Made by a program: the position numbers and the translations under genes
Part shown: positions 14,665 through 43,134 of the stretch, piece after piece
How positions within the stretch are numbered: the stretch's first letter is position 1
How the letters are laid out: each line of letters begins with the position of its first letter
The notes under the pieces: model-generated
What the model saw: the letters and a program-made list of their open reading frames with translations, nothing else
What the model was told of the DNA's origin: nothing
The model's database searches: none
DNA from: Actinomycetota bacterium
GTDB taxonomy: Bacteria > Actinomycetota > Thermoleophilia > Gaiellales > Gaiellaceae
Reading direction: 5' to 3'
Length of the DNA stretch: 64,000 nucleotides
NCBI GenBank assembly: GCA_003161615.1
Contig: PMOB01000003.1
Span: forward strand, 37,323-101,322

Positions 14665-14676
14665 GCCGGTTTCCGC

Positions 14677-14683
14677 TACCCTA
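14677..14683. promoter_or_regulatory. Divergent -10-like elements between the serine hydrolase and rpsO
   Basis: TACCCT on the plus strand (14677-14682) and TAGGGT on the minus strand (14683-14678) overlap almost completely. The minus one lies 13 nt before the serine hydrolase ATG. The plus one would leave an approximately 80-nt leader for rpsO. Confidence 0.35.
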
Positions 14684-14768
14684 CCCGGCGACCCAGGCCC
14701 GGCTCGCGTGACGTCCTTGGCGGCGCGGGCGGAGCCCCGGGAGGCAACAGCAGGAAGGAGAAGGGCAA

Positions 14769-15038
14769 ATGGCCCTAACCAAGGAAGCGAAGCAGGAACT
14801 GATCACGAAGCACGGGCGCAACGACGCCGACACCGGCTCGACTCAGGTGCAGGTGGCGATGCTCACAGAACGGATCAACGAGCTGACCGAGCATCTGCGC
14901 ACGCACAAGCACGACCACTACTCGCGGCGCGGGCTGCTCAAGCTCGTAGGACGCCGCCGCCGCTTCCTGAACTACCTGCAGAAGAAAGATCTCGAGGGCT
15001 ATCGCGCCCTCATCAAGGAGCTCGGCCTGCGCCGTTAG
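14769..15038 (+). CDS. rpsO: 30S ribosomal protein S15
   Basis: 89 residues, exactly the usual length. S15 binds 16S rRNA early in 30S assembly. It has the family hallmarks [29 protein letters not shown] and [12 protein letters not shown] good Shine-Dalgarno, AAGGAGAAGG, precedes the ATG. It is followed by pnp, the near-universal rpsO-pnp pair, with the structured pnp leader in the 93-bp gap. Confidence 0.98.
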
Positions 15039-15050
15039 CTCCATCACTTC

Positions 15051-15107
15051 GGAGGGTGGAAGTTCGAGCGAATCCACCGCAAGGATTGGCTCGAGCTCCC
15101 GCCCTCC
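15051..15107 (+). promoter_or_regulatory. Long leader hairpin between rpsO and pnp (probable RNase III target)
   Basis: The 5' arm (15051-15075) pairs with the 3' arm (15083-15107) over 25 positions with only two mismatches and two G-U pairs, closed by a 7-nt loop. This matches the position and size of the RNase III-cleaved hairpin that governs PNPase autoregulation in E. coli and has been described in Streptomyces. Confidence 0.85.
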
Positions 15108-15124
15108 ACAAAGCAAAGTGGAGG
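15103..15124 (+). promoter_or_regulatory. Alternative hairpin sequestering the pnp Shine-Dalgarno
   Basis: CCTCCAC (15103-15109) is perfectly complementary to GTGGAGG (15118-15124), which is the pnp Shine-Dalgarno, 7 nt before the ATG at 15132. Its 5' arm lies within the 3' arm of the long hairpin, so only one of the two structures can form. Confidence 0.75.
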
Positions 15125-15131
15125 ACAATTT

Positions 15132-17606
15132 ATGAGTATCGCGACCGACCGCCGGGCGCAGGTCTCCGTCCAGATCGGACAGCAGGAGATCAGCTTCGAA
15201 ACCGGCAAGCTCGCGAAGCAGGCGGACGGCGCAGTCGTCGTCCGCGCCGGCGACACAATGGTGCTCGCCACCGCCCAGGGGCGCGCGGAAGCGCGCGAGG
15301 GCGCAGACTTCTTCCCCCTCACGGTCGACGTCGAGGAGCGGATGTACGCCGCCGGCAAGATTCCGGGCGGCTTCTTCAAGCGGGAAGGGCGCCCGACCGA
15401 GCGCGCAATCCTGACCGCGCGGATGATCGACCGGCCGATTCGGCCGCTGTGGCCGAAGGGCTTCCGCAACGAGGTGCACGTGGTTTGCACCGTCCTCAGC
15501 GCGGACATGGTCACGGCCCACGACATCCTCTGCATCAACGGCGCCTCGGCGGCGCTGATGCTCTCGCCGCTGCCGTTCAGCGGCCCGGTGGGCGCCGTGC
15601 GGATCGGGCTGATCGAAGGCCAGTTCGTCATCAACCCGACGCTGCGTGAGGTCGAGGACGACTCCGAGCTCGATCTGATCGTCGTCGGCACGAAGGACGC
15701 GCTGACGATGGTCGAGGCGGGCGCGAACGAGGTGCCCGAGGAGAAGATCCTCGAGGCTCTCGAGCTCGCGCACGGCGAGATCGTCAAGCTCTGTGAGGCG
15801 CAGGAAGACCTGCGTCGCCAGGCCGGCAAGGCGAAGTGGCTCGATCCCGAGCTTCAGGCTGAGCTCGAGCGCGACCACGGCCACACGATCTGGGAGCGCA
15901 TCCAGGCGGCCGGGATCCGCGAGGCCTCCACGAGCGTCGACGAGCTGCTCTCCGAGCTCGCTCCGGCTATCTCGATGGACTCGACCGACGACGACATCAC
16001 CCGCCAGCTCCAGGTCCGCTCGGCGCTCGCCGCGTTGCTCGAGAAGCAGCGCGCCGTCGCCGTCGAAGGCCCGGTGCGCGAGCAGTTCGCTGACGACCTG
16101 AAGGCGCTCACCGACGCGGAGCAGGACTCGAAGGCACTCAAGTCCGCGAAGCGGCAGCTCCTCTTCGACCGCATCGTCGACGAGGTGGAACTGCCCTTCC
16201 CGGTCGGTGCCGCGTCCACAGACGGCGAGGAGCCGGTCAAGGACTCGCAGACGAAGTCGTACGTCAAGAAGGCGTGCGAGTCGATCTACAAGGATCTCGT
16301 GCGGCAGAAGATCGCCGTCGACAAGCGCCGGCCCGACGGGCGCGGCGCCGAGGAGATCCGGCCGATCGAGGTCGAGGTCGGCGTCAACCCGCGTGCGCAC
16401 GGCTCCGGCCTGTTCACCCGCGGCCAGACGCAGATCCTCTCCACGCTGACGCTCGGCACCGCGAAGGAGGGGCAGCGCATCGACGACCTCTCCCTCGAGG
16501 AGGAGCGCCGCTACATGCACCACTACAACTTCCCGCCGTTCTCGGTCGGGGAGACGGGCTTCATGCGCGGCCCGAAGCGGCGTGACATCGGCCACGGTGC
16601 GCTCGCGCAGCGGGCGCTCGAGGCGGTCATCCCGACGGCGGACGAGTTCCCCTACACGATCCGCATCGTCTCTGAGACGCTCGAGTCGAACGGCTCGTCC
16701 TCGATGGGTTCCGTCTGCGGCTCGACGCTGTCCTTGATGGACGCGGGCGTGCCGCTCAAGGCGCCGGTCTCCGGCATCGCGATGGGGCTCGTCAAGGAAG
16801 GCGACGACTACGTCATCCTCACCGACATCCAGGGCGCGGAGGACCACCTGGGCGACATGGACTTCAAGGTCGCCGGCTCTCCGAACGGGATCACCGCGCT
16901 TCAGATGGACATCAAGATCACCGGCGTCACGCAGGAGATCATGCGAGACGCGCTCGAGCAGGCGAAGCGGGCCAGGGAGTTCATCCTCGAGAAGATGCTC
17001 GAGGTCATCCCGGAGTCGCGCTCCGAGCTCGCCTCCAACGCCCCGCGGATCTCGTCGGTCAAGATCGACCAGGAGAAGATCGGCATGGTCATCGGCAAGG
17101 GCGGCGAGACGATTCGCAGCCTCGAGTCCGACTATGAGGTGAAGATCGACATCGGGGAGGACGGCACGATCCTCATCTACGCGACCGAGGGCGAGAAGGC
17201 CGACGCGGCGATCGCCGCGATCGAGGCCATCACGAAGGAGCCCGAGGTCGGGGACGCCTATACCGGCAAGGTCGTGAAGACGACGCAGTTCGGTGCATTC
17301 GTCGAGCTGAAGAAGGGGACCGACGGTCTCCTCCACGTCTCGAACGTCGGCCCCGGCCGGGTTGCGCACATCGAGGACGTGATGAGCCGCGGCGACGTCG
17401 TCGACGTCGTCGTCCAGGAGGTCGACAAGGCCCGCGGCCGGATCGGCCTCAAGCTCGTCGCGAAGCACGAGAACGGCACTCTCGTCCAGCCGGAGGAGCT
17501 GATCGAGCGGGCGAAGGATGCGCCGCCGCGGCCTCCGGAGGAGGAGCGGCCGCGCGGTGGCGACCGCCGCGGCGGACGCGGCGGGGGCGGCCGGTCCCGC
17601 GACTAG
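15132..17606 (+). CDS. pnp: Polyribonucleotide nucleotidyltransferase (PNPase)
   Basis: 824 residues. PNPase degrades RNA 3' to 5' with phosphate. Order: first RNase PH-like domain (about 10-145), helical linker, second RNase PH domain (from about 398, K-R-R-P-D-G-R-G), KH domain (I-G-M-V-I-G-K-G-G-E-T-I-R, about 655-670) and S1 domain (Y-T-G-K-V-V-K-T-T-Q-F-G-A-F-V-E-L), then an Arg/Gly-rich tail. S-M-G-S-V-C-G-S-T-L-S-L-M-D-A-G marks the catalytic core. In E. coli the second PH domain starts near residue 310, so the linker is about 90 residues longer here. Expression is probably controlled by the leader structures just upstream. Confidence 0.97.
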   Translation: MSIATDRRAQVSVQIGQQEISFETGKLAKQADGAVVVRAGDTMVLATAQGRAEAREGADFFPLTVDVEERMYAAGKIPGGFFKREGRPTERAILTARMIDRPIRPLWPKGFRNEVHVVCTVLSADMVTAHDILCINGASAALMLSPLPFSGPVGAVRIGLIEGQFVINPTLREVEDDSELDLIVVGTKDALTMVEAGANEVPEEKILEALELAHGEIVKLCEAQEDLRRQAGKAKWLDPELQAELERDHGHTIWERIQAAGIREASTSVDELLSELAPAISMDSTDDDITRQLQVRSALAALLEKQRAVAVEGPVREQFADDLKALTDAEQDSKALKSAKRQLLFDRIVDEVELPFPVGAASTDGEEPVKDSQTKSYVKKACESIYKDLVRQKIAVDKRRPDGRGAEEIRPIEVEVGVNPRAHGSGLFTRGQTQILSTLTLGTAKEGQRIDDLSLEEERRYMHHYNFPPFSVGETGFMRGPKRRDIGHGALAQRALEAVIPTADEFPYTIRIVSETLESNGSSSMGSVCGSTLSLMDAGVPLKAPVSGIAMGLVKEGDDYVILTDIQGAEDHLGDMDFKVAGSPNGITALQMDIKITGVTQEIMRDALEQAKRAREFILEKMLEVIPESRSELASNAPRISSVKIDQEKIGMVIGKGGETIRSLESDYEVKIDIGEDGTILIYATEGEKADAAIAAIEAITKEPEVGDAYTGKVVKTTQFGAFVELKKGTDGLLHVSNVGPGRVAHIEDVMSRGDVVDVVVQEVDKARGRIGLKLVAKHENGTLVQPEELIERAKDAPPRPPEEERPRGGDRRGGRGGGGRSRD

Positions 17607-43101: not shown

Positions 43102-43134
43102 GGAGAGGGCGGGCGTGAGTCCGCCCTCTCCTTT
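43102..43134 (+). terminator. Internal terminator between binding protein and ATPase genes
   Basis: A perfect 11-bp stem (43102-43112 with 43121-43131), an 8-nt loop and a short TTT tail. It ends 5 nt before the ATG at 43140, which has no ribosome-binding site of its own. It probably lets the binding protein be made in excess and stabilises its mRNA. Confidence 0.75.

Follow-up and report, generated by a model that had tools for sequence, protein, structure and literature searches.

A family-restricted RNA element in the rpsO-pnp gap of the Gaiella family: a candidate cleavage-dependent switch of pnp translation

Hairpins in the leader of the pnp gene, which encodes polynucleotide phosphorylase (PNPase), have been described both in Escherichia coli and in actinobacteria. 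In Streptomyces coelicolor, RNase III cuts a hairpin located between rpsO (encoding ribosomal protein S15) and pnp, and the PNPase activity of an rnc null mutant is 2-4 fold higher (PMC10126417). Staggered cuts have been reported in the pnp leader of Propionibacterium acnes (PMC3848588), and in E. coli a short RNA that shields the mRNA of PNPase is digested by PNPase itself (PMC10362022). In addition, the Actino-pnp RNA is represented in Rfam as family RF01688 (Weinberg et al. 2010, PMC2864571).

Here we describe the rpsO-pnp gap within a window of 64,000 nucleotides (the whole stretch of DNA that was analyzed) from a 2.3 Mb genome of the class Thermoleophilia. The genome is assigned to the Gaiella family (labeled f1), soil actinobacteria that also include the metagenome-assembled genome Gaiella sp. 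FR_16 (locus L045). All features below are located on the plus strand. The rpsO gene (14769-15038; Pfam PF00312, E 2e-35) is followed after 93 nt by the pnp gene (15132-17606), whose 824-aa product contains KH and S1 domains according to a domain search, and a gene for RNase III is present in the genome. The Shine-Dalgarno (SD) sequence of pnp, GGAGG (15120-15124), lies 7 nt upstream of the ATG codon at 15132, and a long hairpin, termed P1 below, nearly fills the gap. The leader of rpsO itself (14665-14768) is likewise conserved in relatives, with GCUACCCUA, which is probably the -10 region of a promoter, followed by GCGACCCAG...UUCCUU...CGGGAG. Its consensus hairpin has double changes at 4 of 14 pairs among the relatives, no Rfam match was found in 14665-14768, and this leader may represent an S15 autoregulatory site.

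The locus resembles its E. coli counterpart in the position between rpsO and pnp, in the long, imperfect double-stranded stem found there, and in the presence of both RNase III and a PNPase with KH and S1 domains. The gap itself differs: in E. coli it spans 246 nt and additionally houses a terminator of rpsO and a promoter for pnp (PMC5872136). The S. coelicolor hairpin is similar in being actinobacterial and having internal loops, whereas the gap there is larger, with a terminator and two promoters before pnp, and SD occlusion is not described in the reviews consulted.

The P1 hairpin is formed by a 5' arm at 15051-15075 (GGAGGGTGGAAGTTCGAGCGAATCC) and a 3' arm at 15083-15107 (GGATTGGCTCGAGCTCCCGCCCTCC), both of them evident on direct reading, in the computed folds, and from covariation. 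Of its 25 positions 23 are paired (two as G·U), and the two mismatches are A15060·C15098 and G15070·G15088; the 7-nt loop (15076-15082) varies in both length and sequence among the relatives. The predicted folding energy is -42.9 kcal/mol (z -8.2), a value that none of 200 shuffled sequences reached. The 5' arm is itself SD-like (GGAGGGUGG). The second hairpin, P2, has a loop of 8 nt and pairs 15103-15109 (CCTCCAC) with 15118-15124 (GTGGAGG) without a mismatch, so that its 3' arm holds the SD sequence and its 5' arm, the anti-SD strand, overlaps the end of P1 at 15103-15107. Both hairpins had been proposed in a first-pass annotation of this DNA, and their coordinates, the counts of mismatches and G·U pairs, and the shared positions 15103-15107 proved to be exact on the sequence. 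Neither P1 nor P2 is followed by a run of T, and we rejected an intrinsic terminator as an explanation for either hairpin.

We searched for S15 in the genus, family, and class, and excised the rpsO-pnp gaps from the fetched DNA. The Gaiella family is represented by 92 distinct gaps, in which an element of the P1 type is present. In its 5' half, a purine-rich arm and then a 1x1 mismatch precede the core GUUUGAG, and the core is followed in order by a small internal loop, AGC, and the variable loop, while the complementary strand reads GCU..CUCAAAC..CUCC. Covariation analysis of rpsO-pnp gaps had been suggested as a check of the first-pass annotation, and for the long hairpin its outcome is favorable: in an alignment of 48 sequences from the family, changes on both sides were detected in 13 of 23 pairs. 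The alignment contains 77 double-change cells as opposed to 23.6 in shuffled controls (n=500), 92.9% of cells are paired as opposed to 86.3%, and the covariation score was reached by none of the 500 shuffles. Sliding the partner strand by a single column nearly halves the pairing, which falls to 38-51% when the partner is slid. The excess of double changes over shuffles and the collapse of pairing on sliding constitute strong evidence, drawn from sequence comparison, that P1 is selected as an RNA structure.

The core GUUUGAG/CUCAAAC and the mismatches that flank it are nearly invariant, beyond what pairing would require. Such constraint on the letters of both strands would fit recognition of the P1 core by a protein other than RNase III, either PNPase itself through its KH and S1 domains or another RNA-binding protein, that blocks or remodels the leader without cleavage, although we consider this very improbable. 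A stem of more than 20 bp with phased mismatches fits what is generally known of RNase III substrates, and the conserved mismatches of P1 are phased along a stem of this kind. The staggered cuts in the P. acnes pnp leader (PMC3848588) also argue against recognition without cleavage, whereas the RNase III-independent translational repression by PNPase reported in E. coli (cited in PMC10362022) argues for it.

The distribution of P1 was assessed using a covariance model built here (R1), which was searched against 250 genomes of the class and against phylum samples. Matches were obtained in 65 of the 250 class genomes, all of them in the Gaiella family and at the rpsO-pnp gap. Within the window, R1 matches 15050-15109 with 64 bits. 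There is one P1 per genome in these 65 genomes, the second row for each genome in the output reporting the inverted repeat again on the complementary strand. No match was found in the remaining genomes of the class and phylum samples under strict filters that may lose weak matches, and under the same filters a few genomes of the family were also without a match. Elsewhere in the window, a short, very GC-rich inverted repeat at 43102-43131 gave a weak R1 match on both strands (18 bits, E about 0.2), which is probably due to chance.

A class-wide design was rejected, as R1 found nothing outside the Gaiella family and the other Thermoleophilia leaders analyzed, including those of two families from the same order (f2 and f3), differ from P1 and have no SD complement. 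The pnp leaders of the sister families within the order (L176-L187) are about 63-73 nt long and contain an unrelated GC-rich hairpin (GGCGGCACGCGGGACGCGUGGCCGC in f2) in place of P1; thus P1 was either lost in the sister families or gained in the Gaiella family.

No Rfam match at the gathering cut-off was obtained for P1, for the window as a whole, or for the loci of the relatives. Lax matches to eukaryotic microRNA models (mir-612, MIR164) fell on generic hairpins and were taken as artifacts, so a known RNA family was rejected on these grounds. The mir-3431 model also matched two relatives (L147:610-677 and L160:291-354) with E values between 9e-6 and 8e-4, short of its cut-off, which cautions that microRNA models are false friends for long bacterial stems.

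Like the Actino-pnp RNA, P1 is a hairpin located in the leader of pnp in Actinomycetota. RF01688 was absent from the window both at its gathering cut-off (47.7 bits, the threshold of membership) and at E<=10, and it gave no match in the loci of 19 relatives at E<=1 or in 200 Thermoleophilia genomes, while 16 of 197 genomes in the phylum sample, from other Actinomycetota, did match. By score, the Gaiella-family element is not a member of RF01688. Judged by eye from folds, some Gaiella-family leaders (L017, L021-L025) resemble Actino-pnp leaders (L218-L231) in the order of their elements, namely a helix, a 1x1 mismatch, a helix of 5-7 bp, a 1x1 mismatch, one pair, a 1x1 mismatch, and a helix. 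This resemblance may reflect distant homology or an equal spacing requirement imposed by RNase III. The conserved letters differ, being UCGGUAGUGGC..GCUUCGAUCGA in Actino-pnp and GUUUGAGCGAGC..GCUGACUCAAAC in the Gaiella-family element. The anti-SD strand is inside the main stem in the latter, whereas in Actino-pnp it is in an added base stem. In leaders of the Streptomyces type (L218-L223, L243-L257) this base stem (GGAGAAGCGC/GCGCUUCUCC) presents UUCUCC for pairing with the pnp SD sequence GGAGAA, by the same logic as in the window.

We estimated how often a hairpin such as P2 would arise by chance. When the 42 nt upstream were shuffled, a 7-nt stretch perfectly complementary to the SD arm arose in 0.7% of the shuffles; the corresponding figure for 42-mers from the genome is 0.6%. 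Among 79 starts preceded by GGAGG in 221 kb of the genome, only two, pnp included, have a P2-like hairpin. The frequency of about 0.6% per site, together with recurrence in relatives, led us to reject chance as the origin of P2.

The first-pass annotation had also claimed that the 3' strand of P1, once released, folds onto the SD sequence, and the predictions agree with this claim. For 86 leaders, the median predicted SD accessibility is 0.47 with the leader intact and drops to 0.016 without the 5' strand of P1, with values below 0.3 in 84 of 86. Shuffling the upstream strand gives a median of 0.31, and the native strand gives a lower value in 84 of the 86 leaders. Averaged by genus, accessibility is 0.41 in the intact state versus 0.07 in the released state, and it is lower in 32 of 33 genera, which are not independent of each other. 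By prediction and comparison, an anti-SD strand that pairs either within P1 or with the SD sequence is therefore kept in the relatives.

The register of P2 slides between genera, and for this reason column-by-column covariation is limited to a few clear cases and swap and shuffle tests were used in place of a single family-wide covariation count. The duplex between the strand and the SD sequence has a mean energy of -13.0 kcal/mol over all leaders, compared with -11.65 for swapped and -9.6 for shuffled strands. When strands were swapped by genus, the native duplex was stronger (-13.6 versus -12.1 kcal/mol) and was the better one in 25 of 33 genera (Wilcoxon p 1.4e-4), shared ancestry being not fully corrected in these tests. 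Clear compensation within P2 was observed in two cases. Most members of the window's genus have CCUCCAC/GUGGAGG, as opposed to CCUCCAA/UUGGAGG in L150 and L151, and L159 has GCUCC/GGAGC, as opposed to CCUCC/GGAGG in its congener L157. The comparative support for P2 is thus weaker than that for P1 but positive. On these sequence comparisons, the complementarity between the strand and the SD sequence is mostly generic, because the 3' strand of P1 has to be pyrimidine-rich and every strand of that kind pairs with an SD sequence, and a smaller part of it is lineage-specific.

The same released-strand test was applied to other lineages. It is positive in the Gaiella family (mean z -1.7), mixed in 73 Actinomycetes (mean z -0.74), and negative in other Thermoleophilia (mean z 0.1) and in E. 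coli (L273). The E. coli 3' arm, unlike that of the window, is not complementary to the SD sequence (duplex -3.6 versus -3.3 kcal/mol for shuffled strands). Of the 49 Actinomycetes leaders that have an Actino-pnp-like core, 13, mostly from Streptomyces, have an SD complement in the strand that is better than 95% of shuffles.

The generic part of this complementarity bears on the possibility that P1 is an RNase III processing site only, which separates rpsO from pnp mRNA and starts the decay of the latter as in the E. coli and Streptomyces scheme, the SD complement being a by-product of the pyrimidine-rich 3' strand. We regard this as a rather unlikely account, albeit one with several points in its favor: the strongly conserved part of the leader is P1, generic complementarity explains most of the pairing energy between the strand and the SD sequence, E. 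coli regulates through such a hairpin with a 3' arm that lacks an SD complement, and the rnc effect in S. coelicolor is described as mRNA stabilization (PMC10126417). Against it stand the native pairing, which exceeds that of shuffled strands and of strands swapped across genera, and the compensatory changes inside P2 (L150/L151, L157/L159).

The state of the SD sequence in the intact leader is less simple than the first-pass annotation had assumed. It had stated that the SD sequence is free as long as the long hairpin is intact, whereas the predicted accessibility in intact leaders averages about 0.46 over the relatives and is just 0.17 in the window. The low value in the window results from a third pairing: in the minimum-energy fold of the whole leader, 15118-15123 is paired with 15039-15044, a stretch that immediately follows the stop codon of rpsO. 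Accessibility rises to 0.63 when this stop-proximal stretch is excluded, as it might be under a ribosome finishing rpsO. Over all leaders this weak third alternative is slightly above chance in complementarity (-6.4 versus -5.7 kcal/mol for shuffles); it is stronger in three genera (g1, g31, g9) and absent or not above chance in others (g3, g11).

These data invite another explanation, in which pnp translation is coupled to that of rpsO, with 15039-15044 holding the SD sequence until terminating ribosomes open it and with P1 and P2 setting a basal level. The minimum-energy fold, the rise in accessibility, and the excess of complementarity in the three genera are all consistent with coupling. 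The effect over all leaders is small, however, and the lack of an above-chance third pairing in g3 and g11 means that it is not the general design. We consider coupling improbable as the main explanation; in some lineages the third pairing may add coupling to rpsO translation.

Taken together, we favor, with a probability of about one half, the reading that a lineage-specific pnp-leader RNA, encoded in the rpsO-pnp gap, acts as a cleavage-dependent translational switch. Under this model, every pnp mRNA would probably arise by read-through from rpsO and carry P1, with its stem of about 25 bp and conserved mismatches, which RNase III is expected to cut by analogy with Streptomyces, P. acnes, and E. 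coli. As long as the 5' and 3' strands remain base-paired, the anti-SD strand would be occupied and pnp could be translated. When PNPase is plentiful, it would degrade the 5' strand, short and still annealed, starting at the 3' end created by the cut, and the freed strand would fold onto the SD sequence as P2 and switch pnp translation off. P1 is predicted to be much more stable than P2 (-42.9 versus -12.9 kcal/mol), and P2 would therefore need the 5' strand to be gone. The first two steps, cleavage by RNase III and digestion of the 5' fragment by PNPase, would be the same as in E. coli autoregulation, and what is new in the scheme is the predicted last step, in which the released strand pairs with the SD sequence. 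Computational comparison of the sequences demonstrates the compensatory conservation of P1, the family-wide complementarity of its 3' strand to the SD sequence, and the tuning of this complementarity within lineages.

We thus view the Gaiella-family element as a family-restricted RNA without an Rfam counterpart that would work like the known elements of pnp autoregulation, with an explicit SD-occluding alternative. A structured RNA missing from Rfam is thereby added, together with its covariance model. In E. coli, the route from degradation of the leader strand to lost pnp translation has been described mainly as mRNA decay and a partly undefined repression, while the sequence of the window points to an explicit final step, one that is conserved throughout a bacterial family and has an echo in Streptomyces. 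It is possible, though we hold this only tentatively and think it doubtful, that actinobacterial pnp leaders follow a common design, the strand that RNase III and PNPase set free being itself the antisense of the pnp SD sequence, and that the Gaiella-family element represents a version of Actino-pnp that is either independent or strongly diverged and relies on this principle as well. If so, PNPase activity would be read out directly as SD occlusion.
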